64,000 nucleotides of DNA. It comes from Intrasporangium flavum. GTDB lineage: Bacteria; Actinomycetota; Actinomycetes; Actinomycetales; Dermatophilaceae. Made by a program: the position numbers and the translations under genes. Under the pieces are notes generated by a model, which ran no database searches, was not told the origin of the DNA, and saw only the letters and a list, made by a program, of their open reading frames with translations. The DNA is taken from assembly GCF_001956915.1 (NCBI RefSeq), contig NZ_MLJO01000013.1:1-64000 (forward strand), read 5' to 3'. Below, piece after piece: positions 24,200-39,263 of this stretch. Each line of letters starts with the position of its first letter. The stretch's first letter is position 1.

Positions 24200-26356
24200 C
24201 TACGGCACAGCCCGATTCGCGGGGACGGCCTCGGCGTCAGCGGGTTCTTCGCCGGTACCTGTGGCGGCACGACGCGAGCGGGTCGGGCGGGTCGAGCGGG
24301 TCGGGCGGGTCGGGCGCGCCGGCCACCACAGGCGGTCCTGCACGAGCCCGGCCAGCGCCGGCACGAGCACCGTGCGCACGACGAGCGTGTCGAGCAGGAC
24401 CCCGAGCCCGACGATCAGCCCGAGCTGGCCCAGGGTCACCAGGGGCAGCACGCCCAGGGCGGCGAACACGGCGGCCAGGACGACTCCGGCGCTGGTGATG
24501 ACGGTCCCGGTCGCCCCGACCGCGCGCACCATGCCGTCCTTCGTGCCATGCGCGACGGCCTCGTCACGGGCGCGGTGAGCCAGGAAGATGGTGTAGTCGA
24601 CACCGAGGGCCACCAGGAACAGGAACGCGATGAGTGGAACCTGCAGGTCGAGGGCCGGCCAGCCGAGCAGGTGCGTGCCCACCCAGGAGCCGGCGCCGAT
24701 GGCACCCAAGGCGCTCAGGGCGTTGACCGGCAGCAGGAGCAGCGGCGCGACGAACGAGCGCAGCAGCACCAGCAGGACCAGCCCGGTGATGGCGAAGACG
24801 AGCGGCACGATGAGCCTCAGGTCGGCCTCGTTCCCGGCGCGGGCGTCGACGTCGGTCGCCTCGGGACCGCCGACGAGCACGGCCGCCCCTGGGACCTGGT
24901 GGACGGCTGCACGGATGGCTTCGACGCTCTGCCGCGCTTCGGCAGTGCCGGGCGAGGCGTCGCTGATGACGGTGACCACGACGGGTCCGGTGCCGGTGGC
25001 TGCGGCAGTGTCTCCCGCGGTGCCCGCAGCTGATGGTGCACCGAGGACGTGCACGCCCGGCACGGTGGCGGCGGCGCGGGCCACCCCTTCGGCATGGTGC
25101 GCGTCGGTGATCACGACGGTGGGCTGTGCGGCCCCGGCCGGGTAGTGCTGGGCGAGCACCTGCAGCCCGGTGGCGGACTCTGCCGAGCCGCGGAAACGCT
25201 CGGTCTGGCTCAGGCCGAGGTTGGTGCCGAACAGTCCGGTGCCGAGGACCGCGAGGAGGGCCACGGCGGCCGAGGCCATGACCGCGGGCCGGCGCACGAC
25301 GCGAGTGGCGACGCGTCCGAAGGCGCCGGCACGGACGTCACGGCTCGTGCCCGCGTCAGGTACGAACGGCCAGAAGACGCGACGGCCGGTGATGGCCAGG
25401 GCCGCGGGCAGCAGCACGAGCACGCAGACGAGGGTGATGAGCAGACCGGCGGCTGCAGCCACCCCGAGGCCGCGGATGCCCGGTGTCGAGGCGAAGGCGA
25501 GACTGCCCAGGGCCAGCACGACCGTGACGTTGCTCGCGAGCACAGCCGGGGTGGTGCGTCGCCGAGCGGCAGCCAACGCGGTGAGGTGGTCGGGGTGGGT
25601 GTGCAGCTCCTCGCGGTAGCGGGAGATCAGCAGCAGCGCGTAGTTGGTGCCTGCACCGAAGACCAGGACGCTGACGATTCCGGTGTCGAACTGCAGGTCG
25701 AGCGCCGCACCGAGCCGGGCCGTGACGGTGGCTGCCGCCTGGTCGGCGAGGGCGACGACCGCGAGCGGGATGAGCCACAGGATGGGGGAGCGGTAGGTGA
25801 GCAGCAGCAGCAGGGCGACGATGCCGACGGTGATCAGCAGCAGGGTCACGTTCGCGCCGTCGAAGGCGGAGGCGATGTCGGCGCCGAACGCCGGCCCGCC
25901 GGTGACGAGCACCTGCACCCCTTCCGGGCGCGCGTCGGCGATGCGTTCGCGCAGCGTGGCGATGGTGGCGGCGTTGTCGGTGTTGGACGCTGCGGTGGCG
26001 ACCGGGAGCTGGATCGTCGCGGCGAGCCGGTCGGCGGAGCGGGTCGCGCTCGAGGCGGGATGACCTGCCGGTGTCGGCAGGTGCCGTCCGAGCTCGTCGA
26101 GGGCTTCCAGGTCGGTGCTGGTGACGGGGTGGCCGTCCTGGCGGGTGGCGACCAGCAGGACGGGCTGGACCTCCTGCCCGGGCAGGGTCCCCAGGACCCG
26201 GGCTGCGCGCGCTGACTCACTGCTCGTGGGCGCTGGTTCAGAGCGCGAGGCGGCGTCGGTGGTCTTCAGGCCGCCGATGGCGGCCAGGACGGTGACCAGG
26301 CCGAGCACGAGCGTGATCCACGCTCGACGACGGCTGGTTGTTCGGTCAGTGGACAC
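24200..26356 (-). CDS. MMPL family (RND superfamily) transporter
   Basis: A 718-aa proton-driven exporter of lipids, lipopeptides or hydrophobic drugs. It has the RND layout of TM1, a first periplasmic domain, TM2-6, a second periplasmic domain and TM7-12. GTNYALLLISRYREEL and GVDYTIFLAHRARDEA are the two GxxY/DY motifs of MMPL TM4 and TM10. The C-terminus has a basic tail made of RPTR/STRPTR repeats, coded by an imperfect GC-rich tandem repeat near 24275-24320. It lies between the MFS pump and the two-component genes. Confidence 0.9.
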   Translation of the reverse strand: MSTDRTTSRRRAWITLVLGLVTVLAAIGGLKTTDAASRSEPAPTSSESARAARVLGTLPGQEVQPVLLVATRQDGHPVTSTDLEALDELGRHLPTPAGHPASSATRSADRLAATIQLPVATAASNTDNAATIATLRERIADARPEGVQVLVTGGPAFGADIASAFDGANVTLLLITVGIVALLLLLTYRSPILWLIPLAVVALADQAAATVTARLGAALDLQFDTGIVSVLVFGAGTNYALLLISRYREELHTHPDHLTALAAARRRTTPAVLASNVTVVLALGSLAFASTPGIRGLGVAAAAGLLITLVCVLVLLPAALAITGRRVFWPFVPDAGTSRDVRAGAFGRVATRVVRRPAVMASAAVALLAVLGTGLFGTNLGLSQTERFRGSAESATGLQVLAQHYPAGAAQPTVVITDAHHAEGVARAAATVPGVHVLGAPSAAGTAGDTAAATGTGPVVVTVISDASPGTAEARQSVEAIRAAVHQVPGAAVLVGGPEATDVDARAGNEADLRLIVPLVFAITGLVLLVLLRSFVAPLLLLPVNALSALGAIGAGSWVGTHLLGWPALDLQVPLIAFLFLVALGVDYTIFLAHRARDEAVAHGTKDGMVRAVGATGTVITSAGVVLAAVFAALGVLPLVTLGQLGLIVGLGVLLDTLVVRTVLVPALAGLVQDRLWWPARPTRPTRSTRPTRSRRAATGTGEEPADAEAVPANRAVP

Positions 26357-34216: not shown

Positions 34217-34474
34217 ATGACACAGACCCACCGAGCGGCGGTGGCCCGGCCCTCGCCGCGGGGCGCCGGACCGATCCTCGACCGGACCGACTGGCGCCGC
34301 GGCTTCGACCTCGCCGCCACCGGCCTCGACTGCCGCGAGTGCGGCGCTCGCGTCGGCGTGCGCCCGGAGCTCGCCGACCGGCACCGCCGGTGGCACGCCG
34401 AGCTCGCCGGCCTCCTCGCAGCGCCTCTCGAGGACGCGCCGGGCGGACCCGACCGGGGCCCTGCGGGGTCGTGA
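34217..34474 (+). CDS. Small putative zinc-binding protein (C2H2-like)
   Basis: 85 aa. The core DCRECGARV...DRHRRWH gives C-x2-C-x13-H-x3-H, close to a classical C2H2 zinc finger, with basic residues around it. ATG 34217 follows ACAGGGGACCCAC. The C-terminal tail is Pro/Gly-rich and unlikely to fold. The spacing suggests a structural Zn site for DNA, RNA or protein contact, but there is no direct evidence. It is a stand-alone gene, ending just before the direct-repeat promoter of the secreted-protein gene. Confidence 0.62.
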   Translation: MTQTHRAAVARPSPRGAGPILDRTDWRRGFDLAATGLDCRECGARVGVRPELADRHRRWHAELAGLLAAPLEDAPGGPDRGPAGS

Positions 34475-34488
34475 CGCCCCGGGGGCTG

Positions 34489-34532
34489 CTTGTGGACCGC
34501 TTGCGGCGCCCTTGCGGAAATCTTGCGAAACC
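34489..34532 (+). promoter_or_regulatory. Four 11-bp direct repeats (CTTGYGR), putative response-regulator site
   Basis: CTTGTGG at 34489, CTTGCGG at 34500 and 34511, and CTTGCGA at 34522 begin exactly 11 bp apart, one helical turn. Such head-to-tail 11-bp arrays are the usual binding sites of OmpR/PhoB-type winged-helix regulators. They end 67 bp before the start codon of the secreted protein gene (34599). Confidence 0.55.
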
Positions 34533-34598
34533 GGCACGAAACGGGCAGAGGTTTCCGACACTGGGTGGGATTCCACCCTTCGTCGTCCGGAGCTCCGC

Positions 34599-35585
34599 AT
34601 GTTCTTCACGTCCCGCCGCCACCCTTCCCGACGGTCCAGCGCCGGTCGGGTCGCCCCGGTCATCGCGCTCGCTCTGGGTGCCCGGGGCGCGCTGGGCGCC
34701 GGCGGCGCCCGGCTCGCCGTGACGACGCTCGCGATCCTCGCCGCGGCGGCAGGAGCCCTGGCCACCGCGCCGGGGGCCGCCGCCGCGACGACGACGCCGG
34801 GCGCCGACAGCCGAGCCATGTGGGTCTGGGACACGAGCACGCCCGCCGCCACGGTCGACCTCGCGGTCAGCACCGGCATCGACCAGCTCTTCGTGGCCGT
34901 GCCGCCCAACGTCACGACGTCGAGCCGGCTGCCCGAGATCAAGGACCTCGTCGGCCGCGCCCGCGCCGCAGGCATCCGCGTCGACGCCCTCGGGGGCGAC
35001 CCCGGCTGGGTGGACAACCCGTCGTGGGTCGTCACGTACTGGCTCAAGCCCGCGAAGAACACGGGCCTGTTCACCGGCATCCACGTCGACGTCGAGCCGT
35101 ACTCGACATCAGCCTGGACCACCGACCAGCCCACCGTCGTCGCGAAGTACCTGACGCTCCTCGACAAGCTCAAGGCCAACGCCGGCACCTACCCGGTCGA
35201 GGCCGACATCCCCTTCTGGTTCGGCGAGATCCCGGCGACCGCGAGCAGCGGCGCGGCCTCGAGCCTCGACCGCGAGATCATGAAGCGCACGGCGGGTGTC
35301 ACCGTCATGTCCTACCGCAACACCGCGACCGGCCCCGACGGCACGCTCGACGTCGCCGCCGCGGCGCTCGCGGCCGGCGCGTCCCTCGGCAAGCCGGTCC
35401 GTCTCGGGCAGGAGACGAACTACCTCGGCAGCACGGCCGTCGACGCGAAGCAGACGTTCTTCGGCTGGACCCGCACCGACATGGAGGTGCAGCTCGCGCA
35501 GGTCGTGGCCGGCGCGTCCGGCTCGGCGACGTTTGCCGGCCTGGCGATCCACGACGCCTCCGGCTACGCCGCCATGGCGCCCTGA
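34599..35585 (+). CDS. Secreted protein, putative TIM-barrel glycoside hydrolase-like
   Basis: 328 aa. A long N-terminal region with an Arg-rich n-region and a hydrophobic core (VTTLAILAAAAGALATAPGAAAA) is a signal peptide or anchor. The exported domain begins SRAMWVWDTSTPAATVDLAV and shows alternating strands: IDQLFVAVP, IRVDALGGDPGW, GIHVDVEPY and VTVMSYRNT. HVDVEPY at the end of a strand recalls the acidic catalytic strand of GH18-like barrels. No exact family assigned. ATG 34599 is preferred to an in-frame ATG at 34512 because that one lies inside the direct repeats. Confidence 0.6.
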   Translation: MFFTSRRHPSRRSSAGRVAPVIALALGARGALGAGGARLAVTTLAILAAAAGALATAPGAAAATTTPGADSRAMWVWDTSTPAATVDLAVSTGIDQLFVAVPPNVTTSSRLPEIKDLVGRARAAGIRVDALGGDPGWVDNPSWVVTYWLKPAKNTGLFTGIHVDVEPYSTSAWTTDQPTVVAKYLTLLDKLKANAGTYPVEADIPFWFGEIPATASSGAASSLDREIMKRTAGVTVMSYRNTATGPDGTLDVAAAALAAGASLGKPVRLGQETNYLGSTAVDAKQTFFGWTRTDMEVQLAQVVAGASGSATFAGLAIHDASGYAAMAP

Positions 35586-36930: not shown

Positions 36931-38292
36931 CTAGCGGCTCGGCAGCGGCGTGCCGGTGACCGGCGTCGTCGTGCCGGCACCTGACGCGGTCGTCGCGGCG
37001 AGGCTCGACGAGGTCGCCTGGACGGGAGCGCTCGACGTCCCCGGGCCCGGCGTGCCGGACGTGCCCGGCGAGGTCGCCTGGGTCGTCGGGCTGGTGGGTG
37101 TGGCCGTGATCGTCGAGGTCGCCGTGACGGTCGCCGTGACGGTCGCCGTGACGGTCGCCGTGACGGTCGCGGTCGTCGTGCTGCGCGCGGTCACCGTGGA
37201 GGTCACCGTGACCGTGGTGCGGGGAGGCGTCGCCCGGGGGAGCGGCGTCGACGCCGAGGGAGGCGGCGCGGGTGCCGGAGGGCCGCCCGTGCCCAGGGCC
37301 CCGACGTCGCCGGCACCGGATGGCACCGCGGCCCGCGCCATGAGGCGGAGCACGGTGGCGAGGTAGGCCCGCGAGTGGTTGTACGACAGCACCGCGCCGC
37401 GCAGGTCGGCCGGGCGGGCGAGGTCGCGGCCGGACGCGCAGAGGTAGGCGGCGGCGGAGGCTGCCGCGTCCTCGACGTCCTGGGGGTCGCGGGCGCCGTC
37501 GGCGTCACCGTCCCGGCCCCACCGGCGCCACGTGCCGGGCAGGAACTGCATCGGTCCCACCGCGCGGTCCCACACCCGGTCCCCGTCGAGCGCGCCGCCG
37601 TCGCTGTCGTGGACCGCCGCGGTCCGCGTCCCGTCCAGCCGGGGGCCGAGCACCGCCGGCACGACGACGTGGTCGGCCGTCAGGCGCCGACCCCGCAGCG
37701 ACCCCGACTCGACCTCGCCGATCGCGGCGAGCAGCGACACGGGCAGGTGGCACGAGGCGCGGGTCGAGCGGGCCGCCCGTGCGTACGCCGCCCCGAGCAC
37801 CGCCGGGACTGTCCACGGGGCCGCGTGGCCGAGCGTCCCCCCGGCCGTGCTGCCGGCGTCGGCGTGACGCGTCGATGCCGTACCGACGACTCCCGTGGAG
37901 GTTGGGGGCAGGGCCGTCACCGAGGCGGGGACGGGGTCGACCGGCGAGGAGCCGATCCCCGTGCCGAGGAGCGCGACGGCCGGTACCGCCGACCGGCCGA
38001 AGCGGGCCACGACGACGGCGGCGTCGGCGGCAGCCGCTTCGGCCGGAGGGACGATCGCGAGCTCGACGCCCGGCCGGCCGTCGGCAGCGAGCTGCGACCC
38101 GGTGGGCAGCGTCCGCGCCGACGGGTCGCCACCCAGCCCGCCGAGCACCATCAGGCCCGCGCAGAGCAAGAGCGCCACGCGTGGACGCGACCTCAGCCCG
38201 GCCGACCACGCCGAGGCGGTCAGGACGGGCCCGGACACGACGCGTGCCGGCCACCGATCCCGTCGCGCCTCGTCCACGGTGCACCCCCGCAC
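36931..38292 (-). CDS. Lytic murein transglycosylase with Thr/Val-repeat tail
   Basis: 453 aa. An N-terminal membrane segment (RVALLLCAGLMVLGGLGG) exports it. After about 110 residues of Ala/Thr-rich linker comes the SLT domain (about 150-300) with catalytic Glu in AAIGEVESGSLRG, VGPMQFLPGTWRRWG and DAAASAAAYLC. The last 130 residues are low-complexity, with TVTATVTATVTATVTAT built on a 12-bp DNA tandem repeat, then Ser/Thr/Pro. This tail is probably cell-wall-spanning. The enzyme cleaves the MurNAc-GlcNAc bond, forming the 1,6-anhydro end. Confidence 0.85.
   Translation of the reverse strand: MRGCTVDEARRDRWPARVVSGPVLTASAWSAGLRSRPRVALLLCAGLMVLGGLGGDPSARTLPTGSQLAADGRPGVELAIVPPAEAAAADAAVVVARFGRSAVPAVALLGTGIGSSPVDPVPASVTALPPTSTGVVGTASTRHADAGSTAGGTLGHAAPWTVPAVLGAAYARAARSTRASCHLPVSLLAAIGEVESGSLRGRRLTADHVVVPAVLGPRLDGTRTAAVHDSDGGALDGDRVWDRAVGPMQFLPGTWRRWGRDGDADGARDPQDVEDAAASAAAYLCASGRDLARPADLRGAVLSYNHSRAYLATVLRLMARAAVPSGAGDVGALGTGGPPAPAPPPSASTPLPRATPPRTTVTVTSTVTARSTTTATVTATVTATVTATVTATSTITATPTSPTTQATSPGTSGTPGPGTSSAPVQATSSSLAATTASGAGTTTPVTGTPLPSR
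37118..37165 (-). repeat. 12-bp tandem repeat, four copies, in the transglycosylase tail
   Basis: Four exact copies of GTCGCCGTGACG (plus strand) lie end to end within a longer, less regular Val/Thr-coding region. Each unit encodes TVTA on the minus strand, so length changes stay in frame. Confidence 0.9.
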
Positions 38293-38594
38293 GCCTCGGG
38301 GCAGGCCCGATGACCCGCCGCACCGACCGTCGCACCACCGCGGGACGCCCGCTCCCGGACGGGCCGGGTGCTCACGCGTCGGTCATGTGCGGCCGAGGTC
38401 CGCATCACGACCCGGTCAGGTCGCGCAAACACCTCTGTCATGTTCCTGTCAGGATCCCGCACCCTTTCGTCCGGGACCGTCCGCATTCGGGCCGCCCGAC
38501 GGGAGCGACATATCGGACATCGCCTCATCAGGAAGCTCACAGGTGCTGAACTGATCTGACTTGTCAGTACGGGGGACGTCAAGGGGGACCGAGG
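38293..38594 (+). promoter_or_regulatory. Promoter region of the response-regulator gene with PHO-box-like repeat and palindrome
   Basis: This 302-bp gene-free stretch contains two 11-bp-spaced hexamers, CTGTCA at 38435 and 38446 (units CTGTCATGTTC and CTGTCAGGATC), resembling the enterobacterial PHO box. CTGAC-TT-GTCAG lies at 38556-38567, just upstream of the start. The direct repeat is about 150 bp before ATG 38595. No good -35/-10 pair was seen. Autoregulation by the OmpR-type regulator is an inference. Confidence 0.4.
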
Positions 38595-39263
38595 ATGGCC
38601 ACAGTCATGGTCGTCGACGACGAAGAACGCATTCGGGGACTGCTGGCGAGATCGCTCTCGTCGGAAGGGCACTCGGTCGTGACGGCGGCCACCGCCAACG
38701 CCGCGCTCGACCGCCTCCAGGGCGGGGGCGTCGACCTCGTGCTGCTCGACCTGGTCATGCCCGGACCGAGCGGCCTGTCGATGCTCAAGGTGATGAAGCA
38801 GCGCACCGACATGCCACCGGTCATCGTGCTGTCGGGGGTCACCGACGTCGGGGCGCGCGTCCAGGCGCTCGACAACGGGGCGGTCGACGTCGTGGCCAAG
38901 CCGTTCAGCCTCACCGAGCTGCTCGCCCGGGTGCGCCGCAACGTCGGCCAGGCACGCCCGGCCCGCGACGACCAGGTGCTCGAGGCCGGCGGGGTCCGCC
39001 TCGACCTCGGCCGCCGACGGGCCGGCTTCCACGACGTCGGGGTGACGCTGACCGAGCGCGAGTTCAGCCTCCTCGCCCACCTCATGCGTCGACGCGGCCA
39101 GGTGTGCCGCCGGGAGGAGCTGCTCCACGACGTGTGGGGGCTCGAGTTCGACCCGGGGAGCAACGTCGTCGAGGTGTGCGTCGGCCGGCTGCGGAGCAAG
39201 CTCGGCCAGGACCTGCCGCTGGAGACGGTGCGCGGCGTCGGCTACTGCTTCTACGAGGACTGA
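38595..39263 (+). CDS. OmpR/PhoB-family response regulator
   Basis: 222 aa. The receiver domain (1-115) has VVDDEERIRGL, phospho-acceptor Asp in LVLLDLVMPGPSG and the Lys in DVVAKPFSLTEL. The winged-helix domain (about 125-220) has LTEREFSLLAHLMRRRGQVC and EVCVGRLRSKLG with YCFYED as the last strand. GACCGAGG precedes ATG 38595. Nine bases separate it from the kinase gene, so they form one operon. The regulated process is not known; the PHO-box-like repeat hints at, but does not show, a link to envelope or phosphate control. Confidence 0.92.
   Translation: MATVMVVDDEERIRGLLARSLSSEGHSVVTAATANAALDRLQGGGVDLVLLDLVMPGPSGLSMLKVMKQRTDMPPVIVLSGVTDVGARVQALDNGAVDVVAKPFSLTELLARVRRNVGQARPARDDQVLEAGGVRLDLGRRRAGFHDVGVTLTEREFSLLAHLMRRRGQVCRREELLHDVWGLEFDPGSNVVEVCVGRLRSKLGQDLPLETVRGVGYCFYED

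Follow-up and report, generated by a model that had tools for sequence, protein, structure and literature searches.

Four head-to-tail copies of an 11-bp unit stand at positions 34489-34532 of a 64,000-nucleotide stretch of the Intrasporangium flavum genome (the window, by which the whole analyzed stretch is meant), ahead of a gene for a secreted-protein-like product. Judged from its sequence, the array is genuine and conserved, an operator of the OmpR/PhoB type whose core word, CTTGCG, is its own. The best candidate for its reader is an OmpR/PhoB-type response regulator encoded on contig C13 of the same genome (hereafter the C13 regulator), and it seems fairly probable that this protein reads the array as the operator of a small exoenzyme regulon.

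The four units occupy 34489-34499 (CTTGTGGACCG), 34500-34510 (CTTGCGGCGCC), 34511-34521 (CTTGCGGAAAT) and 34522-34532 (CTTGCGAAACC) of the + strand. A doubtful, degenerate fifth unit may follow at 34533-34543 (GGCACGAAACG), in which only CGAAAC is in phase. As the original prediction stated, the copies start at 34489, 34500, 34511 and 34522 with no slippage, and CTTGYGR is matched by all four of them. The consensus half-site is CTTGCGG-AAAY, that is, a 7-bp word and a 4-bp spacer repeated four times head-to-tail, with spacers that are not identical from unit to unit. When the + strand of all 64 kb was scanned for 6-mers recurring four times at 11-bp steps, with at most one mismatch tolerated per copy, this was the sole place to come up. 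The four-copy score is 23 of 24; the 260 bp surrounding the gene start, dinucleotide-shuffled 400 times, never gave more than 17.

The array is kept in a sister genus, g53. Eight close orthologs of the downstream gene were compared, namely the gene of I. flavum itself and seven from g53 that are 74-79% identical, and the array stands ahead of seven of the eight (the own gene and six of the seven from g53). Under the same kind of shuffling, applied to 260 bp around the predicted start, the best four-copy score was matched in 0 of 400 shuffles for six orthologs and in 1 of 400 for that of G147. A typical array of the sister genus reads CTTGCGGCAAT CTTGCGAAACG CCTGCGCGAGT CTTGAGCAATC. In G135, the eighth g53 genome, the homolog of the secreted protein is just 58% identical.

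The search for other copies that the original prediction had called for was run, and copies do exist elsewhere in the genome. Exact pairs (CTTGCG-N5-CTTGCG) number five, against none for the reversed control: the window holds two, the region between eno and its divergent neighbor two more, and the fifth lies upstream of an alpha/beta-hydrolase gene. Only such exact pairs stand out in this genome. At the eno locus (L003, ~1490-1550, on G000:C34), a 4- to 5-copy CTTGCG array separates eno from the divergent gene, which encodes a bacterial sugar transferase according to Pfam and which is faced by the CTTGCG strand of the array. Two further sites with one mismatch adjoin the response-regulator gene on contig C13.

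This gene (G000:C13:46546-47397) encodes a protein of 284 amino acids with a receiver and a Trans_reg_C domain (Pfam). No sensor-kinase gene was recognized in the surrounding 16 kb, so that the regulator looks like an orphan. Across 149 genomes of the family, the C13 regulator is found in 11 at E<=1e-50: I. flavum and the whole of g53 (eight genomes) have it at full length, G028 has a partial copy and G049 a more distant one. The nine genomes with the full-length protein contain 32 exact pairs versus 3 for the reversed control, whereas the other 140 contain 38 versus 97 (Fisher p=5.6e-12). When G028 and G049 are reckoned as bearers, the counts become 33 versus 7 and 37 versus 93 (p=1.7e-9). 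The three-copy pattern, one mismatch being allowed, is present in 4/149 genomes, and its reversed control in 0/149.

Ten genomes (I. flavum, the eight of g53 and G021) hold 34 exact pairs versus 4 in the control, and 19 of these loci were examined by reading. Sites lie ahead of genes for a peptidase M43 protein (Pfam, L085) and a kumamolisin/sedolisin-like protease (PDB 1sio, E=1.6e-27, L088) and ahead of a whiB gene (Pfam, L086). More sites, labeled from reading, fall in a DinB/LacI region, in an ACT-domain region and at a patatin gene, with no clear theme. The gene next to the C13 regulator, convergent to it, encodes an HPt-like protein, and all nine genomes have a pair upstream of this gene that is exact or one mismatch away; a pair ahead of the regulator's own gene is found in one of the nine, that of I. 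flavum. In G049, the HPt-like gene carries CTTGCAG-N4-CTTGCAG. The claim that the core word belongs to a regulon is supported by the other sites, the enrichment of exact pairs, the conservation among orthologs and the site at the HPt-like gene.

In three bearer genomes that were listed in full (I. flavum, G147 and G141), 9 of 14 pair distances are 11 bp once those divisible by three are set aside. The spacer, taken as the last four bases of the unit and left free in the search, has an A/T content of 59% over the 24 distinct sites of bearer genomes and of 31% over 23 sites from other genomes, with L103 and the two G021 loci left out; in the window array it is A/T-rich in units 3 and 4 only and weakly so in 1 and 2. 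A 7-bp word followed by an A/T-rich 4-bp spacer is a likeness of the CTTGCG sites to PhoB-type boxes; in PhoB structures, an A/T-rich spacer lies between the half-sites. On a coding score, which is crude and whose threshold of 0.22 was chosen afterwards, 2/27 sites in bearer genomes lie at or above that threshold versus 15/26 elsewhere. At 14 of 27 loci, orthologous copies included, the second copy is followed 33-34 bp downstream by a further CTTGC, and just two other offsets occur within 12-69; the window array has no CTTGC at 33-34 bp.

Several observations weigh against the C13 regulator as reader of the array and its regulon. The co-occurrence of pair and regulator amounts to about one event, because the nine genomes belong to two related genera; many of the counted sites are orthologous copies, and the tests were devised after the hypothesis. 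G021 bears a three-copy array, yet has no C13 regulator at E<=1e-50. G066 bears the regulator, yet the array at its secreted-protein ortholog is not significant (P=0.07). Within 300 bp ahead of the C13 regulator ortholog, none of the eight g53 genomes has a pair, and 20 of the 21 regulator loci examined have no CTTGY pair, the exception being G049. The displayed 170 bp are free of CTTGCG pairs at distant homologs of the secreted protein (g30, g32, g42, g52 and second copies, 56-63% identical). In I. flavum itself, pairs with up to one mismatch are fewer than in the reversed control (25 versus 37), and the spacers of the eno array are G+C-rich.

The search was also carried beyond the family. 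With the G049 protein as query, homologs of the C13 regulator occur in 15/396 genomes of the order at E<=1e-62, a threshold that I. flavum itself does not reach. The pairing of an OmpR-type regulator with a convergent HPt-like gene is conserved at 20 loci (L125-L133, L135, L140, L141, L217-L221, L223, L227 and L229). A looser pair, CYTGM at 11 bp, is present at 9 of these 20 loci in the promoter of the HPt-like gene, other spacings reaching at most 4 each. Outside the family it is seen in 2 of 10 such promoters, no more often than other spacings, and the link of pair and regulator is weak there. In a scan of genome contigs with the C13 regulator, in which the matches listed ran into generic receiver motifs, a one-mismatch CTTGCG pair occurs at 2 of the 80 loci listed (L151 and L195, from distant phyla).

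The main rival reader is an activator of the SARP/AfsR type, in which an OmpR-like winged helix is combined with a BTAD domain. CGGCAAG, repeated with spacers of 4 bp, is the word used by the SARP regulators PimR, SanG and PolR (PMC3367932). Their heptameric direct repeats have a geometry identical to that of the array, and the array unit, reversed to CCGCAAG, is one base away from their word (6/7). In SARP targets, the 3' repeat stands 8 bp from the -10 element (PMC10936776). I. flavum has three BTAD genes, one of them ~3 kb from a site on contig C45, and the three-copy CTTGCGG array of G021 (L030/L037, G021:C29:36743-36771) has a divergent AfsR-like gene beside it, whose product combines Trans_reg_C, BTAD and NB-ARC domains; the G021 array, in a genome without the C13 regulator, is likely a SARP operator with nearly the same word. 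However, BTAD genes as a group do not seem to follow the sites: they occur in 104/149 family genomes, mostly without enrichment of pairs. G121 and G147 both have sites and one BTAD gene each, whose best E values (3.7e-35 and 4.9e-19) are so unlike that the two genes are hardly orthologs. Moreover, no array was seen in the DNA displayed upstream of the three BTAD genes of I. flavum, while the promoter that bears a site in 9/9 genomes is that of the HPt-like gene, beside a response regulator. A SARP reader of the window array is considered unlikely.

Just as unlikely, in our estimate, is a different winged-helix regulator, for example another OmpR-type one, for which the C13 locus would be one target among others. 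Regulators of this type are many, with 57-80 first-look candidates for the C13 query in the nine bearers (an unspecific count), and the gene of one regulator can have sites beside it that serve another, higher in the hierarchy. Against this stands the finding that, of the two regulators traced (the C13 regulator and one encoded in the window at 38.6 kb), the C13 regulator alone is found exactly in the nine site-rich genomes.

The second of these, which is of the OmpR type and whose gene spans 38595-39263 of the window, had been put forward in the original prediction as a reader to test. It lies 4 kb off, combines a receiver with a winged helix, and has a kinase gene behind it. Its distribution does not match that of the sites: at E<=1e-50 it occurs in 16/149 genomes (I. 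flavum, five of the eight of g53, and ten beyond the nine bearers), and three of the eight g53 genomes with sites (G066, G129 and G135) have no match at this threshold. No CTTGCG pair is present in the 301 bp upstream of its gene, which has a different repeat instead, the 11-bp direct-repeat pair CTGTCA-N5-CTGTCA at 38435-38456 (CTGTCATGTTC CTGTCAGGATC). This CTGTCA pair is probably another OmpR-type operator; it was not seen at the three orthologous loci examined. With a mismatched distribution and a repeat of its own, the 38.6-kb regulator was rejected as a very improbable reader, and the C13 regulator fits better. The idea of an OmpR-type operator is supported with respect to the winged-helix fold, the new core word and the regulon, but not with respect to this proposed reader. 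Finally, that the array is a functionless product of chance or slippage is the least credible reading of all, since, although exact pairs in non-bearer genomes are mostly coding-like (15/26), the array score is unmatched in 400 shuffles, arrays stand at 7/8 orthologs and the spacers vary among units.

The HPt-like protein encoded beside the C13 regulator is predicted to form a helical bundle (mean pLDDT 94), and its best structural match is HptB (7c1i; TM 0.82, Foldseek E=4.9e-3, probability 1.00); Foldseek gave no match below 1e-3. An HPt profile matches with E=8.5e-8, and the Pfam Hpt model stays below its cut-off (17.7 versus 24.6 bits). The predicted model thus has the HPt fold, alike to that of HptB of Pseudomonas aeruginosa, but the phospho-accepting histidine of HptB is missing: at its position, Leu is found in 19/20 homologs, Met in 1/20 and His in 0/20. 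A tentative and rather doubtful proposal would be that this 'dead' HPt protein is a constant partner of the regulator, adjusting its activity by binding to the receiver and without phosphate transfer. It would do so in a feedback loop, because the HPt-like promoter bears the same operator, and in several actinobacterial families such a cassette would govern genes for exoenzymes and for the cell surface.

As for the C13 regulator at the window array, the mechanism that we infer would start with the switching of its receiver by a signal, upon which dimers would bind neighboring repeats along one helix face. The wing of the winged helix would be placed in the A/T-rich 4-bp spacer, and the bound regulator would influence RNA polymerase at the secreted-protein promoter; activation as the direction is a guess. 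The C13 regulator may also control the adjoining HPt-like gene, as well as the whiB gene and the secreted proteases of the sister genus. Binding, direction, signal and the role of the HPt-like protein all belong to this putative scheme.

Among the closest known systems are the boxes of actinobacterial PhoP and of Escherichia coli PhoB. The PHO boxes of Streptomyces coelicolor are 11-bp repeats with GTTCACC, and PhoP of Mycobacterium tuberculosis uses 7-bp repeats with a 4-bp spacer (PMC9019756); PhoB binds direct repeats (PMC10294691). Direct repeats at 11-bp steps are thus common to the array and to PhoP/PhoB boxes. The core word is CTTGCG rather than GTTCACC or TCACAGC, and the original prediction was right in separating it from the PhoP word (PMC9019756). 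The array also differs from PhoP/PhoB systems in that its targets are of the exoenzyme type and that the candidate regulator adjoins an HPt-like gene, with no kinase gene recognized nearby. The repeat word of MtrA, with which the array had likewise been contrasted, is GTAAC. Neither a CTTGCG repeat nor the pairing of regulator and HPt-like gene is named in the titles or abstract openings of the open-licence PMC texts that were listed.

An OmpR-type operator with a definite candidate regulator for secreted hydrolases turns a guess about one promoter into a testable regulon. Tying the regulator to a conserved HPt-like protein without the histidine raises the possibility of response-regulator control without phosphate transfer. 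A word of caution also follows: near-identity to the SARP heptamer does not by itself make an 11-bp array a SARP site.

The inferred target gene (34599-35585, + strand) encodes a protein whose N terminus looks, by eye, like a secretion signal. At the thresholds used, Pfam and NCBIfam gave no matches for it, and it matches PDB 10yv, a 'putative GH97 from Cellulomonas fimi', with E=4.9e-15; therefore, the product is probably a glycoside-hydrolase-like enzyme, a weak relative of 10yv. Homologs are present in 22/149 family genomes. The array lies in the 124-bp intergenic region between open reading frame (ORF) ends at 34475-34598, which presumably contains the promoter of the target gene. Upstream, a small putative ORF at 34217-34474 (+ strand, 85 amino acids from an inner ATG, according to the sequence and the ORF list) stops 14 bp ahead of the array. 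Elsewhere in I. flavum, a second homolog of the secreted protein (G000:C1:17845-18732, L070, 56% identical) has a single CGCAAG upstream and no pair.

Some side observations were made in the course of the comparison. In G028, a CTTGCG pair (L103, G028:C126:415) lies between an FMN-binding protein gene, like the one at the C13 locus, and the gene of a small secreted protein, which we take from reading to be TasA/camelysin-like. Rfam gave no matches at gathering thresholds for nine array loci. The arrays at L007 (~1370-1400) and L031, from two genera, follow a common conserved stretch (~GGTTCACGTACCAC..CGGGCCAACCGCCGAAGTC), possibly an undescribed RNA or control element. Short repeat runs elsewhere in the window, at 37116-37132 and 24275-24286, have periods of 12 bp and 9 bp, and the former falls within the Thr/Val-rich part of a transglycosylase-like ORF at 36931-38292.
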